64,000 bases of DNA from Caballeronia humi (GTDB lineage: Bacteria; Pseudomonadota; Gammaproteobacteria; Burkholderiales; Burkholderiaceae). The notes under the pieces are model-generated. The model was not told the origin of the DNA, did not search any database, and saw nothing but the letters and a program-made list of their open reading frames with translations. The translations under genes were made by a program, and so were the position numbers. This document shows, in pieces, positions 29,637-39,147 of this stretch (positions are counted from its first letter, which is position 1; every line of letters starts with the position of its first letter). The stretch covers positions 1 to 64,000 of the forward strand of contig NZ_FCNW02000030.1 in NCBI RefSeq assembly GCF_001544475.1. The letters run 5' to 3'.

Positions 29637-30299
29637 GTGGCAGCGGAAATCATTGCGATCACGCAGCAGAAGGGCGGTGTCGGAAAGAGCACCATCGCCA
29701 TGCATCTTGGGGCCGCCTTCCATGAGAGGAAGAAACGCGTGTTGGTAGTCGATGCCGATGGGCAAAACACGCTTATCCATTGGGCCAGTGCCGCCTCCGA
29801 CGGCTCAAGCGGCATTCCGTTTCCCGTCGTCAACCTGTCGGAGGCGGGCGGTCAAATCCATCGTGAGATCAAGAAGTTCGTCAACGACTACGACATCATC
29901 GTCGTGGACTGCCCTCCATCGATCACGGAGAAAGTTTCCGGAGTGGTGCTTCTGGCCGCCACGGTCGCCGTGATACCGACGTCGTCGTCACCGGCCGACT
30001 ACTGGTCGAGCGTCGGTTTGGTCAAGTTGATCCAGCAGGCGCAGGTCATGAACGAAGATCTTCGGGCCGTATTCCTGCTTAACAAGACCGAAGAAAAGCG
30101 GATGTTGACGCGCGAACTAAAGGTCGCGCTTGAGGAACTGGGCTTTCCGCTCTTAAAAACGCAAATTCCGACACGAGAGTGCTACAAGCAAGCGATGGCG
30201 CTTGGACAGACCGTGCTTCAAATGAGTGATCGAGGCGCTCGTCTCGCGGCAACGGAAATCCGCTCATGCGCTGGCGAAATTCTCGCCATGCTCCCCTGA
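29637..30299 (+). CDS. parA: ParA partition ATPase
   Basis: This 220-residue deviant-Walker ATPase has Walker A' (KGGVGKSTIAMHLG), IIVVDCPPS at Walker B and no N-terminal helix-turn-helix, so it is a small ParA-type protein. It drives segregation of the replicon together with ParB bound at parS. The start is GTG at 29637, preceded by ACGGAG. The stop codon overlaps the parS copy at 30299, and parB follows after 23 nt. The parS copies upstream and between the genes suggest autoregulation by ParB. Confidence 0.93.
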   Translation: MAAEIIAITQQKGGVGKSTIAMHLGAAFHERKKRVLVVDADGQNTLIHWASAASDGSSGIPFPVVNLSEAGGQIHREIKKFVNDYDIIVVDCPPSITEKVSGVVLLAATVAVIPTSSSPADYWSSVGLVKLIQQAQVMNEDLRAVFLLNKTEEKRMLTRELKVALEELGFPLLKTQIPTRECYKQAMALGQTVLQMSDRGARLAATEIRSCAGEILAMLP

Positions 30300-30315
30300 C
30301 TTTATGCGCATAAAG
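30299..30315. promoter_or_regulatory. parS site 3, between parA and parB
   Basis: A third perfect ACTTTATGCGCATAAAG begins on the last base of the parA stop codon and ends 7 nt before parB. Confidence 0.85.
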
Positions 30316-30322
30316 GTCCCAA

Positions 30323-31387
30323 ATGAAACCGTCTCAGTTCGCCAAAGGCTTCAAGGCCCGCCCCGACACAACAAGCAGTGAAAAACGAACGGCCCTCGAT
30401 CGGCTGAATGCAATCGACGGCATCGTAAGTAACGACCACTCGAACCAGCCGGCAGCCAATGGCCGCTCCAGCGCATTCGCCGACGACGACAGGCAAGAAC
30501 ACACGCTCGGCCCCGAGTCTGACGACTATAAGACCTGGCGGCGCGCAAATCGCTATGTGCCGGGCCAGATCATCGAATTGCCTTTGAAGGCGATCAAACC
30601 GAGTCCATTCAATCCGCGCCACTTTTATCTAAAGGCGTCGATAGCGGAACTGGCCGTCAATCTGGCCAAGCAGGGGCAGCAGCAGGCCATCCACGTCATT
30701 CCTGACTATGAAAGCGCCGGCACGTTCTTCGTGAGCGATGGTGGACGACGCGTGCGAGCACTGAAAGAAGCAAACAAGGAGACGGTAAAGGCAGTCGTCG
30801 TCGACTTGCCGATAGGGATCGAAAGCTACAAACTCGGCTACGACCTGAACGTGCAGCGCGATTCACAGACCGTGTTTGACAACGCCGTCGTGTGGAAGCG
30901 CTTCCTGGAGGATCAGCACTTTCAGAGCCAGCGCGAACTCGCAGACCATCTGGGTCTGGACGAATCGACAATCGCAGTGGCGTTATCGGTCGCGAAATTG
31001 CCGGAAAATGTGATGCACGAAATGGTCGCGAGGCCCGATCGGTTCGGGTCGAACATGGCTTACCAAGTGACCCGTTACCACACCGCACGGGGCACTGACG
31101 CTACGCTGCGTCTCATCAACAAAATTGTCTCGGACGATCTAAGCACCCGGCAGGTCGCGGATATCGTGAAGGGGCGCGCCACCGCGCAGGAGTCGCCAAA
31201 GCCGGCTGGGCGACAACGCTACGCGCAACGCCTGGAAATCAAGCTCGAGGGCATTGCCGTTGGTGATCTGAAATCCTACGGCGACGATCGTCTGGAATTG
31301 CGCCTTCGCGGCTTGTCGAAGGAAAAACGCGATGAGTTACTCCACCAGATCGAGGAAATGCTGCAATCCGGTGTTGCAAAGCGCTAA
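30323..31387 (+). CDS. parB: ParB centromere-binding protein
   Basis: This 354-residue ParB/RepB-type protein has the ParB N-terminal domain (SPFNPRHF, then SIAELAVNLAKQGQQQAIHV and the nucleotide-pocket motif GGRRVRALKEA). The helix-turn-helix QRELADHLGLDESTIAVALS follows, with a C-terminal part for dimerisation. It should bind the TATGCGCATA palindromes around the operon and spread along DNA. It is co-transcribed with parA and convergent with the initiator gene, the two stops separated by a hairpin. Confidence 0.93.
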   Translation: MKPSQFAKGFKARPDTTSSEKRTALDRLNAIDGIVSNDHSNQPAANGRSSAFADDDRQEHTLGPESDDYKTWRRANRYVPGQIIELPLKAIKPSPFNPRHFYLKASIAELAVNLAKQGQQQAIHVIPDYESAGTFFVSDGGRRVRALKEANKETVKAVVVDLPIGIESYKLGYDLNVQRDSQTVFDNAVVWKRFLEDQHFQSQRELADHLGLDESTIAVALSVAKLPENVMHEMVARPDRFGSNMAYQVTRYHTARGTDATLRLINKIVSDDLSTRQVADIVKGRATAQESPKPAGRQRYAQRLEIKLEGIAVGDLKSYGDDRLELRLRGLSKEKRDELLHQIEEMLQSGVAKR

Positions 31388-31395
31388 GCAGAAGA

Positions 31396-31419
31396 CGCGC
31401 CGCCTGTTCAGGCGGCGCG
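31396..31419. terminator. Hairpin between convergent parB and rep genes
   Basis: CGCGCCGCCTG-TT-CAGGCGGCGCG is a perfect 11-bp stem that overlaps the rep stop codon and lies 8 nt after the parB stop. The T-run is poor, but the position between convergent genes fits a bidirectional terminator. Confidence 0.65.
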
Positions 31420-32760
31420 AGATTGATTAAGTGTGAAGGCTAGCAAATCGCCGTCGGTGGGCTCGCCCCATGTCTTGCGCGCGAGCCAATCGAAGAAAGA
31501 AGTTTCTACGAGCTTCGAATCCAGGCCGCGCTTGCGCCAATCGTCACGCATGTGCGTGCCAAGCTCCGGCAGCACATCTTCCTCGAACGTCTGACGCGCC
31601 AACTCCCGCTCCTCCTCACCTTGCTCGTCGTAAAGTGCCCGTGCTTCCTTACGTCGGTGGGCCGAAAACTCGCTCAACAATCGCGCTTTGAGGTCGTCCG
31701 CTGGCGCACCGTTGTTGCGTGTCGACACGGGCGCCGCCGGTGGCAGTGCTTCGACGGGCGGCGCGTAACCCTTTTTCAACGCATCCTTGAAAAGCGCCGC
31801 CGCGCTACGCACGGGTGGCAGCGATGTGCTCCTCATACGCTGCTCGGTCATTTGCAGCGCAGCCCGGATACGATTTTCTTCGCTGTCGGCGTACAGCGTC
31901 TGCGCGTCCTTCAGCGGGATGCCGATCTTCACCATGCGATCGACGAGCGTACTGTCAAATACATTGGGATGCTCATCGAGCGCGAGCATCGGCTGCTTTT
32001 TCTCCGTGACGCGAAACTGAATTTCCGCCACGCGCCGCCCCTCGCGATGCTCGATCAATTCGACGAAAATGTTCGTCACCGCGTTCACTTCGGCAATCGC
32101 CGGACGCAAATAATCGCGCTTGAAGTACTTGTACTCGCGCTTGGCCTCGTCGCCTGCTTCGGTATCGGGCGTCCCGGACAAGATCGGCCGCCACCACTCC
32201 CACGTCTCGCGCATCGTCAGATGACTTGGATTCGTGAGATAGCGAACGCAGATTTCGTAGAGCGCGAGCCCGGCGCTGCTGCGTAGTTGGCTCTGGAATT
32301 GCAGACTCAGTCGAGCGTACTGAACCGGATCGAGCAGCTTTTTCTTGATCTTCGGCGCGAACGAGAATTCAACCCAAACGCGGCGCGTCGCCGGGTCTTC
32401 GAGAATTTCAGCGTCGGCGATGAGCGTCGAAATGCCCCATTTGCGACCCGGCTTCTGGCTCGACGTGCCCGTACTCCATTCAACCTGCACCGACACCATG
32501 CGCCGCAGATGCTCCTTGACGAGGGCCGTGTCGTTCGAATCGAAAGCGGAGTTCGCGACGATGTCCGACAATAATGCGCGATAGGTATCGCCCGACTCAT
32601 CGGCCTGCTGGGCAACCGCGAGCAATACGTTGAAGAGCTTGCGCGTCAGCAGCGTGATCTTGCCGCTCTTCGGCTGGATCGCGATGGCCTCAACGGCCTT
32701 GCGCAGTTCCGCCGAACTGGGGCTCACTACATCGGTTTTCTTTGCGCGCTTCGTTGCCAT
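31408..32760 (-). CDS. Rep_3-type replication initiator protein
   Basis: This 450-residue initiator belongs to the Rep_3 (RepA/RepB of secondary replicons) class. It has an early block IQPKSGKITLLTRKLFNVLLAVAQ, the winged-helix segment SSAGLALYEICVRYLTNPS and a long charged C-terminal tail. It should bind the iterons that begin 121 nt upstream of its start and recruit host replication proteins. An inverted pair of iteron half-sites at 32829-32844 is a likely self-repression site. It is read toward parB. Confidence 0.9.
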   Translation of the reverse strand: MATKRAKKTDVVSPSSAELRKAVEAIAIQPKSGKITLLTRKLFNVLLAVAQQADESGDTYRALLSDIVANSAFDSNDTALVKEHLRRMVSVQVEWSTGTSSQKPGRKWGISTLIADAEILEDPATRRVWVEFSFAPKIKKKLLDPVQYARLSLQFQSQLRSSAGLALYEICVRYLTNPSHLTMRETWEWWRPILSGTPDTEAGDEAKREYKYFKRDYLRPAIAEVNAVTNIFVELIEHREGRRVAEIQFRVTEKKQPMLALDEHPNVFDSTLVDRMVKIGIPLKDAQTLYADSEENRIRAALQMTEQRMRSTSLPPVRSAAALFKDALKKGYAPPVEALPPAAPVSTRNNGAPADDLKARLLSEFSAHRRKEARALYDEQGEEERELARQTFEEDVLPELGTHMRDDWRKRGLDSKLVETSFFDWLARKTWGEPTDGDLLAFTLNQSRAA

Positions 32761-32816
32761 GCGTCGGTTCGAGAGGATTTTGCGATGAGGATACTGATTG
32801 CGGTGAAGGCCGTCTA

Positions 32817-32844
32817 TAGGGTCACCCTCACCCTAGAGCGGTGA
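32817..32844. promoter_or_regulatory. Inverted iteron half-sites, candidate Rep operator
   Basis: TAGGGT-N7-ACCCTA (32817-32835) overlaps TCACC-N6-GGTGA (32829-32844). The second uses the conserved CTCACC end of the iterons in inverted orientation. Rep_3 initiators commonly repress their own gene through such inverted half-iterons, and this one is about 70 nt before the rep start. Confidence 0.55.
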
Positions 32845-32880
32845 AGCACGCGACGCACTCACAACTCACTGCGGTGCGCT

Positions 32881-34129
32881 CCCGAAAACGCTCACCACTC
32901 ACCTTTCGGGCATATCGCATCTAGCCAAGCGGCATGCGGGTAAACGGAAACCGGGAAATTGCGGACTGTTAACTTCGATTGATGCAGCCTCCCGAAAAGC
33001 CTCACCAAAAAAAATTTTGGGTCTGAATGGCGTTTGTCGCCTCAAAACTCCGGTCGGCGAACATGTATTTTTGGCCTTCAGTGCGTTGGCGATCACGCGA
33101 CTTAAATTCTGGGCGCGAGTTTTCGCTTCTCGGGGGGAGTGCTGGTCCCGTAAAACCTCACCGAAGCACCTTCTGGCGCCGTACCTAGCAGATTTCAGGT
33201 GCAGAGAAGAGGGAAGGAACCCTCCCGAAAAGTCTCACCTCACGTCGACTATCTCCAGCGCAAGGCCGTCGACATTGCGAATTTAGGTCCTGAAAAGCCT
33301 CACCTTTGCCCGATACCCATAGAAAATCTCTCTTTTAAGAGACGTTTTAGGCCGCCGGACTGCGCCATCCCGTCCCGAATAACCTCACCTCAAGTTGCGC
33401 CCGCTCCAAAGTTGTGCGGTTGGGTTTTCGCAAAAGCGCTCCCGAAAAAGCTCACCGTTGCGAGCATCCATCGCGAGTCTTCTCGTCCAGTCGCTTGATT
33501 TAATTGACTATTTGTCGACGATCGTCGCTACGTACCGCCCCGACTCCGCTCTTTACAAGGCAGGATGCGTCACGCGACTCCCGAAAACCCTCACCGAGAG
33601 ATCGAGAAATGCGGCCAAGCGCAAGCTTCAAAGGCGAGATGTGCCTCCCGAAAAGACTCACCTCCGATGCAGGATTCTCGCAAACCGACCAGATTCCAGC
33701 GCCATGGCCTCGACGCTAACCCTTAAACGGGCGACAAATAAACGATGGGTCCCGATTTCCCTCACCTTTCGGGCAAACGACGGCCATATACCGCCGCATC
33801 GCAGTGCATCGTTCCCGAAAAGGCTCACCCACCTGGTGCTTTGGGGCCCGTAAAATCTCACCAATCGGTAATAAATACTTAGTCAGTGTGATTTTCTTTA
33901 GTCTTTTCGTGCCCCTGATAGCGCTCACCCATCCGGTGCGAGACGTCCGGTGCCGGTCCCTCGTGAATACGGCTCACCGCTGATCGGCGTCCCGCAAAGC
34001 CTCACCTCTCGCAAATGCCCGCCTCCCGAACCCGCTCACGATGTGTCCCGCATATCCTCACAGGTCTCCCTGAAACTCGTCACCGCGAGCTCCCGGAGAC
34101 ACTCACCTCGGCTCCTGAAAAGCTTCACC
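32881..34129 (+). repeat. Iteron array, ~20 copies of CCCGAAAANNCTCACC
   Basis: Direct 16-bp repeats start at 32881, 32991, 33147, 33224, 33289, 33374, 33441, 33580, 33647, 33751, 33814, 33847, 33914, 33963, 33991, 34025, 34047, 34069, 34092 and 34114. All are on the plus strand. The most constant parts are the leading CCCGA and trailing CTCACC; the copy at 33963 is the most degenerate. Spacing falls from 65-156 bp to 22, 22, 23 and 22 bp in the last five, which is two helical turns. Confidence 0.92.
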
Positions 34130-34496
34130 TGATCGCCTGCAAACGCCCGCTCAGCAAGGGTTTGCGGAAGCGTTAACGTTTTTAACTAAGGTTCAAGGGT
34201 GTTTACTTCTAATACTCTCAAACAGACTTGCCGTGTCTCTGCGAGAAGGGAATCACCCCAAAAACCGTGAAACATCCAACCGATATTCATCTACGGCCAA
34301 AAACCGAATATAATCAGCAGGTTACTTAGCAAAGTTCATTGTGTTTCACGGATCGATCGCGAGCTGCGGTAAAAAGACTGCCGAACACCAGCAATCCCGA
34401 CAGAAGTAAGCAGTTTGGCAAAGACGCGAAGCAACCCGTCACGTCCGCTACGTAAAACGTTATGATCGCTCCGTTCTACCTTTCCAGAGCATCACC

Positions 34497-35696
34497 ATGA
34501 ATGACGAAGCTCGCGATCAACTACGCCGCGAAATCGAAACGCTGCGTGCTTCTGGCGCACGACGCCAAGAGCTTTCGCAGCACGCCTGCAAGCGGCTCTT
34601 CTTCGATTTCGGCATCCGGCCGTCTATTGCCACGGTTCGTGAATTCACGCAGACGGGCAGCGCAAGCGATATCCCGAAAGACATCGATGCTTTCTGGACG
34701 CGCATCCGCGCTGCATCGCGTGTGCGCATCGAAGGAGGTGCCATCCCGGAAGCCCTGCAGGAGCGCGCGGGTGAGTTGCTCGGGCAGCTCTTTGTCGAAG
34801 CGCAGCAGTGTGCTCGGGCGTCGCTCGCAGCTGAGAAGGCGGAGATCGACGCCACTGTCGATGCGTCCGAGGGCCGGGTGAGGGATGCGGACGCGCGCCG
34901 CGCCGCGATCGAGGAAGCGTTCCAGCGCAGCGAATCCCGTGCGGAAGCCGCGGCCGCGCGCGTCGCATCGCTCGAAGCCGAACTCACGGCGACGCGCGGC
35001 CAGGAATCCAGCGCGCATGACGGCTTGCAGGTCCTGATCGGTCGATTGGAGCGCGAAAACGAAGCGTTGTCCAAGCGCCTGGAACAAGAGCAGGCCGCAA
35101 ACGCCGCATTGCGCGATCGGCTTGACGTATTGCAGAGCGAACTGCGCCAGAACACCGAGCACTATGCCGGCCAGATCAAGGACGCCGTCAGCGAAGCCGA
35201 ACGCCGCGTGAAACCGATGCTCGTCGAACTCGATTCGTTGCGAACCATGTCAGCGACTTATCAGGCCGGCGTGCGCGAATCGAGCCAAAAAGAATTTCAA
35301 TTTATTCAACAGCTTAGCGCAGCCAAAGCACGCGGCGATCGGTTCGAGACGCAGGTGCGCAAGCAGTCCGACGAGATCGACGCGCTCGCGCACGAGCGCG
35401 ACACATTGAAGGCGCGCGGTTCGATGAGCGAGGAAGTCGGCAGGACGCTTTGCGCGCTCGCCGCTCAGGGACGCCTGACAGATAACGAACTCGAGGCGCT
35501 GGGCACGCAGATCGACGCACATGTGGGGCTGCCGTCGCACTGTCCGGCCTGCGAAGCCGGCGAACCCGAACTGTCGCAACATGAGGATGAGTACGAGTTA
35601 TCGTGTCCGGAGTGCAACCACACGTCCGGCGCGACGTCGTCAAAACTCGCGGCACTCGCGGGATTCAGTGTCTCGGAGCGCGTCGAGTCGCCCTGA
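34497..35696 (+). CDS. KfrA-like coiled-coil DNA-binding protein with zinc ribbon
   Basis: This 399-residue protein starts with a KfrA_N-like DNA-binding segment (about 1-115; RRQELSQHACKRLFFDFGIRPSIATVREF). A long alanine/glutamate-rich coiled coil follows (about 115-320). The end holds CPAC and CPEC about 25 residues apart (near 347-375), a probable zinc ribbon not expected in classical KfrA. KfrA proteins of plasmids form filament-like assemblies that support stability. The gene reads away from the iteron array and an iteron lies just after its stop. Confidence 0.8.
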   Translation: MNDEARDQLRREIETLRASGARRQELSQHACKRLFFDFGIRPSIATVREFTQTGSASDIPKDIDAFWTRIRAASRVRIEGGAIPEALQERAGELLGQLFVEAQQCARASLAAEKAEIDATVDASEGRVRDADARRAAIEEAFQRSESRAEAAAARVASLEAELTATRGQESSAHDGLQVLIGRLERENEALSKRLEQEQAANAALRDRLDVLQSELRQNTEHYAGQIKDAVSEAERRVKPMLVELDSLRTMSATYQAGVRESSQKEFQFIQQLSAAKARGDRFETQVRKQSDEIDALAHERDTLKARGSMSEEVGRTLCALAAQGRLTDNELEALGTQIDAHVGLPSHCPACEAGEPELSQHEDEYELSCPECNHTSGATSSKLAALAGFSVSERVESP

Positions 35697-35726: not shown

Positions 35727-36728
35727 CTAAACGGCGTTTTCATCACCTCCCCCCCGCGCTCGCGCGATATCGCGCTCCCGTATTTCCTCACCCATCCATT
35801 GTTGCCACGCGCGATGCAGCCGATGCGACGAGATCGGCTGCTGAAAACCGAGCCACTGTCCAACGCGTTCCGGATCTGTCCCGCTCTCGAATAAATCGGC
35901 GGCGAAGGTGTTGCGCAGCGTCTGCGGACTCGCCCGCGCGGCTCGCGACGCCGCGATGCCCGACGCCTCGACGACCGCGTCGATGGCACGCAGCATCGTC
36001 GCCTTGTGCATCGGACGGCCGGACGGCGCCGCGGGGAACATCAGGTTGCCGGCGAGCCCAAGCGTCTTGCGCTCGCTGATCCAGTTGTCGAACAGGGCGA
36101 TCGCGAACGGCGCGAGCCGCGTTTGCCTCGCGATCGCCGGGTTGGCGGCATCGACCGTTAGCCAAGGCTGGCCCCAAACGTAGCAACTAACGGTCAATGC
36201 GGCGGCCTCACCGGTCTTCACGCCGCCACCCAGGAATGCGCCGACCAGCGCGCGATCGCGACGCTCGCGCCAACGCTGCCCCGTCGACAAATCCCCGATC
36301 GGCGAGAAAAGATGTGCCACCAGCAACGCGCGCTCGCCATGGGCGAGGAAGCCGGTCGGCTCGTTTTCGCGGGCGTCGCGCCATGCCGCCGATCCATCTT
36401 GCGCGATGAAGCGCGCAGGATTCGTCGATGCCATCTCGATCTCGCGCACATGATCGAGCACCCGCTCGATAAGGCGCAGATAGCGAATGCGCTGTGGCCG
36501 GCGGATGTCGAGTTGCGCGACGAATTGCTCGATCACTGGCCGCTCGACCGACTGAAGCGTCGTCCGCTTGGCCTTCAGCCATTCGAGAAAAAGCCCCCAT
36601 TGCGCGCGATAGACATCCGCTGATGAAGCCCGGAATTCCTGCTGCGCGAGCCACGCATCGAACGCGATCTGGGGATTTGTGTGCCAGTCGTCGCGCTGTT
36701 GATCGAAGATATCGGAGTTGCTCGGCAT
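35727..36728 (-). CDS. Tyrosine-recombinase-like protein, probably lacking catalytic tyrosine
   Basis: About 333 residues carry a SAM-like N-terminal core-binding domain (FDAWLAQQEFRASSADVYRAQWGLFLEWL) and a recombinase-like C-terminal domain. By-eye alignment gives GGGVKTGEAAALTV where family members have an arginine (here Lys). SPQTLRNTFA keeps the second arginine. At the end, GFQQPISSHRLHRAW has His where the nucleophilic Tyr is expected. It may act as a DNA-binding, non-cutting protein. ATG 36728 is chosen; a GTG at 36812 is possible. An iteron (35777-35792) lies in its 3' end. Confidence 0.75.
   Translation of the reverse strand: MPSNSDIFDQQRDDWHTNPQIAFDAWLAQQEFRASSADVYRAQWGLFLEWLKAKRTTLQSVERPVIEQFVAQLDIRRPQRIRYLRLIERVLDHVREIEMASTNPARFIAQDGSAAWRDARENEPTGFLAHGERALLVAHLFSPIGDLSTGQRWRERRDRALVGAFLGGGVKTGEAAALTVSCYVWGQPWLTVDAANPAIARQTRLAPFAIALFDNWISERKTLGLAGNLMFPAAPSGRPMHKATMLRAIDAVVEASGIAASRAARASPQTLRNTFAADLFESGTDPERVGQWLGFQQPISSHRLHRAWQQWMGEEIRERDIARARGGGDENAV
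35777..35792 (+). repeat. Outlying iteron inside the recombinase-like gene
   Basis: CCCGTATTTCCTCACC keeps both conserved ends of the iteron consensus. It is in the same orientation as the main array, within the coding 3' end of the minus-strand recombinase-like gene. Confidence 0.6.
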
Positions 36729-36883
36729 GGGAGTCGTGCTCGCTTGAATTACGGTTAGTTGCTCGCCAAGGGTCGGGGTTTCCTTCGCGTACGTCAAGCC
36801 CCTCTTGTACACCGTGCGCGTCGTCGACTACTGTCCCTTTAACGGTTGCCTTCCGACAGACGCAAAAGAACAAGGAGCGAGCC

Positions 36884-38314
36884 ATGAATGCGTTGCCCAT
36901 CAGCGATGAACGCCGAGCGCGCGGACGGGCGGCGCGTCAGAAGGTGCCGCGCGGCGCGCACGATGCAATCGGAAATGTTCATCGCGATCCTATTGAGCTT
37001 CTGAAGCGAAGCAGCGCCGGGCGCGTCGATGCGCTCGTTCCGCTGCGCTACGGCCGCATGTTGCCCTCGCCGTTCACGTTTTATCGCGGGAGCGCAATTC
37101 TGCAGGCGCATGACCTCGCGGACACGCCGGACAGCGGCATCCACCTGCAAATCTGCGGCGACTGTCATTTATCGAACTTCGGCGGCTTTGCGACGCCCGA
37201 GCGCGCGCTAGTCTTCGATCTCAACGATTTCGACGAAACCGCGCCTGGCCCGTGGGAGTGGGACTTGAAGCGTCTGGTCGCGAGTTTCACGATTGCGGGC
37301 CGGCATCTCGGGCACGGCGATGTCGCCGCCGACGAATTTGCATTCCGCGCCGCAGAAAGTTACCGCACACGCATGCGCGAGTACGCGGAGATGGGCGTGC
37401 TCGACCTCTGGTACGAGCGCATCACGTTCGACCGGATGCACGACGCCGTACAGACCGACGACGCGCGGCGGCGCATCAAGCGCGGCATGGAACGCGCGGC
37501 GCGCCGGACACACGAGACCATCCTGCCGAAGCTGGCCGAGCAGACCGAGAACGAATGGCGAATCCGCGATGCCCCGCCGAGCATTTTTCATATTCTCGGA
37601 AAGAATTCGCTTTTCAAACCCACCGACGAGGTCATGACTTTGACCGCCCATCGCGATGAATTACTCGCGCCGGTGATGAAGGAGTATTTCGCGTCGATGA
37701 CATCGGAGCGCGCGGCGCTTCTCTCGCAGTTTTCGATACACGATCTGGTGTTCAAGGTGGTCGGCGTCGGCAGTGTCGGCACGCGCTGCATGGTGATCCT
37801 GCTGATCGATCCGCACGGCAAGCCGCTCTTCTTGCAGGTGAAGGAAGCGTCGAAATCGGTGGTCGCGATGTTCTTCAAGGGCTCGAAACACGATCCGAAG
37901 GCGCCGTCGCACGAGGGACGGCGTGTCGTCCACGGCCAGCGGCTGATGCAGGCCGCAAGCGATCCGTTCCTCGGCTGGTCGACCGGGCCGTTCGGCCGCT
38001 CGCTATACATGCGGCAGTTGCGCGACATGAAGATCTCGGCGGAACTCGAAACATTCGACGCCGATGCGTTTCGCGAATACGCCGCGATTTGCGGCTGGGG
38101 GCTCGCTCGCGCACACGCGAAGTCAGGCGGCTGTGCGCTCGAGATCGCCGGCTACCTGGGCACCGGCCAGCGGATGGCGGACACGCTCGTGCGCTATGGC
38201 CGTGCGTACGCTGACCAAGTCGAAAAAGACTACGAGGTCTTCCGCGCAGCATGCCGCGATGGACGGCTGGAAGCCCGCTCTGATGCCGACATGGCAGCAG
38301 ACTTCGCGCCGTAA
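36884..38314 (+). CDS. DUF2252 family protein
   Basis: This 476-residue DUF2252 protein has signature stretches FTFYRGSAILQAHDLA, QICGDCHLSNFGGFATPE and FDLNDFDETAPGPWEWDLKR. These resemble a kinase-like phosphotransfer pocket (HLSNFG, DLNDFD), though no biochemical role is established that I know of. The start at 36884 follows AAGGAGCGAGCC; the open frame before it lies antisense to the recombinase-like gene and is rejected. No signal peptide. Monocistronic. Confidence 0.88.
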   Translation: MNALPISDERRARGRAARQKVPRGAHDAIGNVHRDPIELLKRSSAGRVDALVPLRYGRMLPSPFTFYRGSAILQAHDLADTPDSGIHLQICGDCHLSNFGGFATPERALVFDLNDFDETAPGPWEWDLKRLVASFTIAGRHLGHGDVAADEFAFRAAESYRTRMREYAEMGVLDLWYERITFDRMHDAVQTDDARRRIKRGMERAARRTHETILPKLAEQTENEWRIRDAPPSIFHILGKNSLFKPTDEVMTLTAHRDELLAPVMKEYFASMTSERAALLSQFSIHDLVFKVVGVGSVGTRCMVILLIDPHGKPLFLQVKEASKSVVAMFFKGSKHDPKAPSHEGRRVVHGQRLMQAASDPFLGWSTGPFGRSLYMRQLRDMKISAELETFDADAFREYAAICGWGLARAHAKSGGCALEIAGYLGTGQRMADTLVRYGRAYADQVEKDYEVFRAACRDGRLEARSDADMAADFAP

Positions 38315-38323
38315 CGCGGCTTT

Positions 38324-38683
38324 TTAGTGTCCGACGGCGAGCGCCAGCTTCGGATGCCCGTGTAGCGCGGCCTGTTCGTAAGCATCCACGGCGAACGCGA
38401 ACACCGCCGGCAACGCATCCGACGAACTGAAGTCGACGATATCGTCGGTTTGCGGATAGGCGAAATCATCCGGACGCGCGAAAAGTTCGCGCAGCGCGGG
38501 CTCGTGTCGGCCGGCGAATCCGAGATCGGCGACGGCTTCCCCTTCGATCGCATGCAGGAGACGCCAGGTCAGCGGCACGCCTTGCGCGATGTAGCGCGCG
38601 GCGATCTGGCGCGTGATGCGTTCCAGATCGCGCACTGCCCGGGCAAACTGCCTCTTGTTCAAATTCTCGCCGTTCGAATTCAT
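38324..38683 (-). CDS. Small hypothetical protein, probable SOS (LexA) target
   Basis: I do not recognise the family of this 119-residue soluble protein. Its first half is charged and helical (RQFARAVRDLERITRQIAARYIAQG). The second half is acidic with PQTDDIVDFSSSDALPAVFAFAVDAYEQAA. AAGGGGA precedes the ATG at 38683. Its promoter region contains a complete CTGT-N8-ACAG LexA box 32 nt before the start, so expression during DNA damage is predicted. It is convergent with the DUF2252 gene, 9 nt apart. Confidence 0.72.
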   Translation of the reverse strand: MNSNGENLNKRQFARAVRDLERITRQIAARYIAQGVPLTWRLLHAIEGEAVADLGFAGRHEPALRELFARPDDFAYPQTDDIVDFSSSDALPAVFAFAVDAYEQAALHGHPKLALAVGH

Positions 38684-38710
38684 CTCGGTTCCCCTTCATG
38701 CGTTCTTTAT

Positions 38711-38734
38711 AACACTGTACAAACATACAGTGTT
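38711..38734. promoter_or_regulatory. LexA (SOS) box
   Basis: AACACTGTA-N6-TACAGTGTT is a perfect 9-bp inverted repeat. It contains CTGT-N8-ACAG (38715-38730), the core of the proteobacterial LexA operator, and stands directly upstream of the minus-strand gene starting at 38683. Confidence 0.75.
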
Positions 38735-38961
38735 CGCCGCAATGAGAATAGGGTCGCGCTAGTCGCGCCGCGTGTATGTGCGATTCCGCCTACGTGCTTA
38801 TCAGACGCGCACGGCTACGCGGGAGCGGCGTTAAGGCGCATCGTAGAGTCATGCTTGGGGACCTCCCTGGCGAGGCGCGCAAAGCAACACACGCAATGCC
38901 ATCGCGAAGAGCGACGCACTGTGAGCGCGCCAAAACCCGATGCACTTCAAGGAGATCGACG

Positions 38962-39147
38962 ATGAACAAGGATCAGACGGATGGCGTTTTGAAGCAGGCG
39001 AAGGGCAAGGTCAACGAAGTGGTCGGCAAGGTGACCAATGACCCGGCGCAGGAAGCCAAGGGCGATTTGCAGCAGGCGGCCGGCAAGGTTCAGAAAGGCG
39101 TCGGCGATGCGCGTGAAGACCTGAAGGACAGCGTGAAGAAGCCGTAA
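38962..39147 (+). CDS. CsbD family stress-response protein
   Basis: This 61-residue, lysine-rich, hydrophilic CsbD-family protein has two similar repeats (GVLKQAKGKVNEVVGKVT and AKGDLQQAAGKVQKGVG). CsbD proteins accumulate in general stress in many bacteria; the molecular role is unclear. AAGGAG lies 8 nt before the ATG and a strong terminator follows, so it is an abundant-type monocistronic transcript. Confidence 0.9.
   Translation: MNKDQTDGVLKQAKGKVNEVVGKVTNDPAQEAKGDLQQAAGKVQKGVGDAREDLKDSVKKP

Follow-up and report, generated by a model that had tools for sequence, protein, structure and literature searches.

The locus analyzed here raises two linked questions: whether a small gene that follows a LexA-type palindrome close to the replication genes of a secondary replicon belongs to the SOS response, and what its product might do there. 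The gene lies in a 64-kb stretch of Caballeronia humi DNA, which we call the window, and the original prediction had singled it out as a possible undescribed SOS gene.

The palindrome and the gene behind it

The gene and the elements upstream of it are, by position in the window:

38324..38683, minus strand: DUF2471 (PF10616) gene, 119 aa, ATG at 38683 and stop at 38324; predicted small acidic helical protein
38691..38697, minus strand: Shine-Dalgarno-like AAGGGGA upstream of the DUF2471 ATG, read from the sequence
38711..38734, no strand assigned: LexA-type box palindrome with a CTGT-N8-ACAG core at 38715-38730, kept upstream of all orthologues tested
38714..38719, minus strand: -10-like hexamer TACAGT, inside the LexA box
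38737..38742, minus strand: -35-like hexamer TTGCGG, on the DUF2471 side of the box and 17 nt from the -10-like element

The palindrome reads AACACTGTA-CAAACA-TACAGTGTT and spans 24 bp at 38711-38734, with two perfect 9-bp arms and a 6-nt spacer. Both the perfect inverted repeat and the CTGT-N8-ACAG core that had been predicted were thus borne out, as was the 119-residue gene behind them, an open reading frame running from 38683 to 38324 on the minus strand. The gap between the box and the gene had been given as 32 nt, and it measures 31 nt from the core to the ATG. The bare core by itself is weak evidence for a LexA site because 0.27 copies are expected in the 64-kb window, where one is found, and because 22 of 100 shuffles of the window contain at least one. 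The match over the full 20-mer is stronger evidence than the bare core, with 15 of 20 positions agreeing with the consensus TACTGTATATATATACAGTA and the next-best site in the window reaching 12/20.

The family of the 119-residue protein had been called unknown, and on this point the prediction failed, since the protein belongs to the Pfam family DUF2471 (PF10616; E 3.3e-45, 153.3 bits against a curated cut-off of 25). Nothing besides DUF2471 rose above noise in the Pfam search, no model in NCBIfam, PHROGs or PADLOC matched the protein, and no convincing homologue was found among the sequences of solved structures. Its closest named relatives are from Caballeronia (C. terrestris, 98%), and its dN/dS against Caballeronia relatives is 0.03-0.10, and therefore the gene is under purifying selection. 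The protein is small and mostly acidic, and its predicted model contains four helices (mean pLDDT 79.6). A Foldseek search with that model gave no significant match in the PDB or BFVD. The helical domain of PNPase, which scored Z 6.1 to the predicted model, was set aside because such a score is within the chance range for helical models.

Conservation of the box and probable membership in the LexA regulon

A search for the box upstream of orthologues had been proposed as a check on the prediction, and when it was run, the box was present at a promoter-compatible position, and at 16-19/20, in 78 of 78 distinct upstream regions (120 nt each). These regions belong to intact chromosome-2-type orthologues from Burkholderia, Paraburkholderia, Caballeronia, Mycetohabitans and other genera. 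When the upstream regions were dinucleotide-shuffled, 8 of 15,600 sequences reached 15/20. The columns of the box are near-invariant across the orthologues while the flanking columns drop to about 0.2 bits, and from this we conclude that the box is conserved for itself. Among the genus labels, g8 is Mycetohabitans, g10 is Pandoraea and g11 is Burkholderia, with g20 taken as Paraburkholderia and g3 as Cupriavidus-like by similarity.

One Caballeronia of reduced genome size (locus L105, genome G221) has a broken DUF2471 frame and a degenerate box, and the neighboring rep and recombinase-like genes contain stops.

Promoter-like elements are arranged around the box in a consistent manner. On the gene side, 52 of 79 orthologues have a TTG(C) -35-like element at a constant position 10 nt ahead of the box, and on the mirror side 0 of 79 have one. 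TACAGT is found within the box in 74 of the 79. A strict sigma-70 consensus scan did not report the TTGCGG-17-TACAGT promoter because both hexamers match the consensus weakly. From the conservation of these elements, we infer that TTG(C) and TACAGT form a promoter that is directed at DUF2471 and would be covered by LexA. In most genera, 21-35 nt separate the box from the ATG. The spacing is 69-74 nt in most of the Burkholderia sequences read, and translation there may begin at an earlier codon.

This geometry bears on whether DUF2471 is the gene that the box serves. The box might instead be that of a divergent CsbD-like gene at 38962, or the palindrome might be fortuitous. The palindrome itself is symmetric and the CsbD start is about 230 nt off in Caballeronia, so a site directed at CsbD is conceivable, but the -35-like element stands on the DUF2471 side only and the short spacing in most genera is to the DUF2471 start. 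Furthermore, CsbD was not seen beside DUF2471 in either of the Burkholderia loci tested (L125 and L130), and the box is still conserved in Burkholderia. We therefore rejected CsbD as the target on the basis of the Burkholderia loci and the one-sided -35-like element, and with conservation largely refuting it, we regard this alternative as very improbable.

The same motif precedes SOS genes elsewhere in the genome. One LexA gene is present, with two boxes upstream of it, and a box of 14-19/20 precedes recA, imuA (at two loci) and uvrA, as well as a DEAD_2 helicase gene, a UDG-family gene and two radical-SAM genes. The 15/20 score of the window box falls in the range of the boxes at these other SOS genes. 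The genome-wide survey consisted of a pattern search and 20 fetched loci, and imuA, for which Pfam gave no match, was identified by sequence and position. Strong LexA-type sites were also seen in this genome at L015 (about 1971) and L022 (about 2037 and 2055) beside ORFs without a Pfam match, and these ORFs are possibly additional SOS genes.

We favor reading the gene as LexA-repressed because of the box, its conservation, the promoter geometry and the occurrence of the same motif at the genome's other SOS genes, and we consider it highly probable that DUF2471 is a member of the LexA regulon. The boxes in all 78 regions, the single LexA and the motif before lexA, recA, imuA and uvrA likewise support the original suggestion of an SOS-response gene. 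LexA seated on this palindrome would occlude the -10 region and the spacer of TTGCGG-17-TACAGT and so shut off transcription. When DNA is damaged, RecA filaments would lead to LexA cleavage, and the 119-aa protein would be produced. Repression by LexA and release upon damage are proposed for DUF2471 by extension from established LexA biology.

The gene had also been put forward as undescribed. Two unnamed LexA-regulated genes, hypA and hypB, were predicted in Burkholderia and multi-chromosome relatives by Sanchez-Alberola et al. in 2012 (PMC3323433), whose main text assigns them neither a family nor a function or context. The phyletic range of hypB is similar to that of DUF2471 (PMC3323433), and one of the two genes may be the DUF2471 gene. 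Because of this fit, part of the LexA-regulon claim may already be published, and the description as undescribed holds for the function of the gene, while its LexA regulation was possibly predicted in 2012. DUF2471 was not named in any of the papers searched, and the Burkholderia SOS literature searched had no bearing on it. The same search did not find an SOS assignment of the family, the promoter geometry, or the links to plasmid cassettes, prophages and an inactivated recombinase partner that are described below. A DUF family for which the literature search found no role is now tied to the DNA-damage response.

The secondary replicon and the recombinase-like partner

The neighboring features in the window are:

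29637-30299, plus strand: ParA, context
30323-31387, plus strand: ParB, context
31408..32760, minus strand: Rep3-type replication initiator of the secondary replicon, context
34497..35696, plus strand: KfrA-like gene, context
35727..36812, minus strand: tyrosine-recombinase-like protein with catalytic residues replaced, the usual downstream partner of DUF2471
36794..38314, plus strand: DUF2252 gene, start uncertain, between DUF2471 and the recombinase-like gene and on the strand opposite to them, an insertion present in some Caballeronia

A position near a secondary-replicon origin had been predicted, and the ParA, ParB, Rep3-type initiator and KfrA genes at 29637-35696 agree with it. In the window, 5.6 kb separate DUF2471 from rep of this chromosome-2-type replicon, and in most genomes the gene is no more than a few kb away from rep of chromosome 2. 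The recombinase-like gene is the next conserved same-strand gene downstream of DUF2471 in 116 of 118 genomes of Caballeronia, Paraburkholderia, Burkholderia and g13, a count that includes one genome in which the pair is split across the record start. A gap of 1.6-1.8 kb between the two genes, as in the window, is found in 21 Caballeronia genomes, and in the larger loci read, kfrA, rep and parAB lie beyond the recombinase-like gene.

The partner resembles XerC/XerD in that it matches PF00589 (E 1e-9) and XerD 1a0p. It differs from them in its catalytic residues, where the first Arg is replaced by K, the His by Q, the His/Trp by F or L and the Tyr by L, leaving the second Arg as the only one retained. 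By sequence it is thus recombinase-like and not a working recombinase. Since the catalytic residues are replaced, a recombination reaction is unlikely, and in the four genera the protein is likely a DNA-binding pseudo-recombinase.

With this arrangement, DUF2471 and its partner could form one SOS-induced module that would help the secondary replicon to persist through damage, for instance if it bound close to ori2 and influenced replication or segregation. The directly 3′, same-strand position of the partner in the 116 genomes, with rep, parAB and kfrA adjoining, is consistent with such a module, and the recombinase-like gene also follows DUF2471 in divergent plasmid copies (L133, L134 and L146). 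However, in genus g25 DUF2471 is near rep and a recombinase orthologue is present in 0 of 11 genomes, which suggests that the two genes are separable; the box is present in all four g25 upstream regions read. The pair is also not adjacent in Mycetohabitans, g16 and g17, the opposite-strand DUF2252 gene splits it in the window, and the partner was not seen beside imuABC-linked DUF2471 copies. Replacement of the catalytic Arg, His and Tyr further makes ordinary dimer resolution unlikely, and site-specific dimer resolution by DUF2471 and the recombinase, weakened by these replacements and by g25, was not retained. We judge a replicon-maintenance module to be unlikely.

Plasmid and prophage copies and a possible role in error-prone repair

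DUF2471 occurs in 164 of 299 Burkholderiaceae genomes and in 10 of the 25 genera sampled. Across an order-wide sample (n=399), almost all matches fall within this family, L143 being the only one from elsewhere. Most divergent DUF2471 genes, including those of prophages, also have a box. Boxes are found beside them in Pandoraea genomes (15-16/20) and Cupriavidus-like genomes (14-17/20), beside a second Burkholderia copy (17/20) and beside the L143 copy (18/20). Several plasmid copies have no nearby box (L129, L132, L135-L138, L151-L153 and L199).

Ten IMG/VR contigs carry DUF2471, and in six of them, three of which are near-identical (L184, L185 and L187), a box of 15-19/20 lies upstream (L183-L188). 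In L186, DUF2471 and imuA diverge from a common 19/20 box, and in L188 a phage integrase is followed by DUF2471. A search of an annotated phage collection gave no DUF2471 match. A phage origin of the window copy was considered and discarded on this result, the only relatives of that kind being distant ones on IMG/VR contigs.

Many bacteria that lack UmuDC carry out SOS-induced mutagenesis by means of ImuA-ImuB-DnaE2, and to our knowledge little is understood of how this machinery is regulated at the protein level. On Paraburkholderia plasmids (P. terrae, P. sabiae, P. caledonica and PGU19), imuA-imuB-dnaE2 is followed about 23 nt on by a DUF2471 gene of the 99-aa type. A 17-18/20 box precedes imuA in the three plasmid cassettes whose upstream was fetched (L193-L195), and the L128 plasmid cassette was read without its promoter. 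The dnaE2-DUF2471 junction is also found in L140, imu genes lie within 10 kb of DUF2471 in L137-L139 and L129, and L133 contains a DUF2471-imuA tandem. Membership in the cassette holds for the plasmid paralogues L193-L195, and the window copy is alone under its own box.

These cassettes are similar to the plasmid imuA2B2C2 of pRalta, which is likewise a LexA-boxed cassette for SOS mutagenesis carried by a plasmid in the same family of bacteria (PMC4151985). In Ralstonia with pRalta, CTGTN8ACAG upstream makes expression of the plasmid imuABC LexA-dependent (PMC4151985). The pRalta locus has three genes (PMC4151985), whereas the Paraburkholderia plasmid cassettes have DUF2471 as a fourth.

We propose that DUF2471, as a small acidic helical protein, would tune RecA or the ImuABC mutasome in error-prone repair and would in this way fill a DinI/ImpC-like niche without homology. 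DinI and ImpC occupy the niche of tuning RecA and mutagenesis in enterobacteria, and DinI has a wider distribution on mobile elements. ImpC has been described as a LexA-induced, DinI-like protein on an E. coli plasmid (PMC12211044). DUF2471 is like DinI/ImpC (PF06183) in being a small LexA-controlled protein encoded by a single chromosomal gene and also in plasmid mutagenesis operons (impCAB in the case of ImpC). Unlike DinI/ImpC, it is predicted to be all-helical rather than alpha/beta, it has no sequence match to them, and it sits at the 3′ end of imuA-imuB-dnaE2 rather than with umuDC-like genes. PF06183 gave no match in the DUF2471 protein, and DinI was not found in 41 Caballeronia genomes.

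We favor a modulator because the spread of DUF2471 over chromids, plasmid operons and prophages resembles that of DinI/ImpC, because DinI is missing from the 41 Caballeronia genomes and because the protein is small, acidic and predicted to be helical. Against this explanation, several plasmid copies lack a close box, most DUF2471 genes are not adjacent to imu genes, the constant neighbors on chromosome 2 are replication and recombinase-like genes and not mutasome genes, and no fold match in the PDB or BFVD backs any biochemical role. Modulation of RecA or the ImuABC mutasome is therefore a role that we assign tentatively. The best explanation overall, to which we give slightly less than even confidence, is a LexA-repressed SOS gene whose product, to judge from its context, most likely tunes RecA or ImuABC. 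It is a more doubtful proposition that DUF2471 is a dedicated Burkholderiaceae SOS family that would work with ImuA-ImuB-DnaE2 on chromids, plasmids and prophages and replace DinI/ImpC-type control.

The presence of DUF2471 on chromids, plasmids and prophages would also suit an SOS damper or checkpoint of mobile elements, kept from the plasmid past of chromosome 2, that acts as a PsiB-like limiter of RecA filaments or imposes a SulA/SidA-like delay of division. The small size and acidity of the protein are consistent with this, as are certain plasmid copies that lack a LexA box and sit among runs of small genes. However, only DUF2471 was above noise in Pfam, which leaves the protein without homology to SOS dampers or division inhibitors already known, and we think a damper or checkpoint rather improbable. 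Under the RecA/ImuABC-tuning role that we prefer, DUF2471 is a concrete candidate regulator, having a strong LexA box to itself on chromosome 2 and copies appended to plasmid ImuABC cassettes.

Two further observations concern the plasmid copies. The cassettes L193-L195, L128 and L140 have genes encoding DNA ligase, Ku or an SOS-response-associated peptidase in their vicinity. On Pandoraea plasmids (L196-L198, 5523-6288), a LexA-type box is followed by a 113-aa gene without known role and then by DUF2471, and the box and the two genes apparently form one transcription unit.
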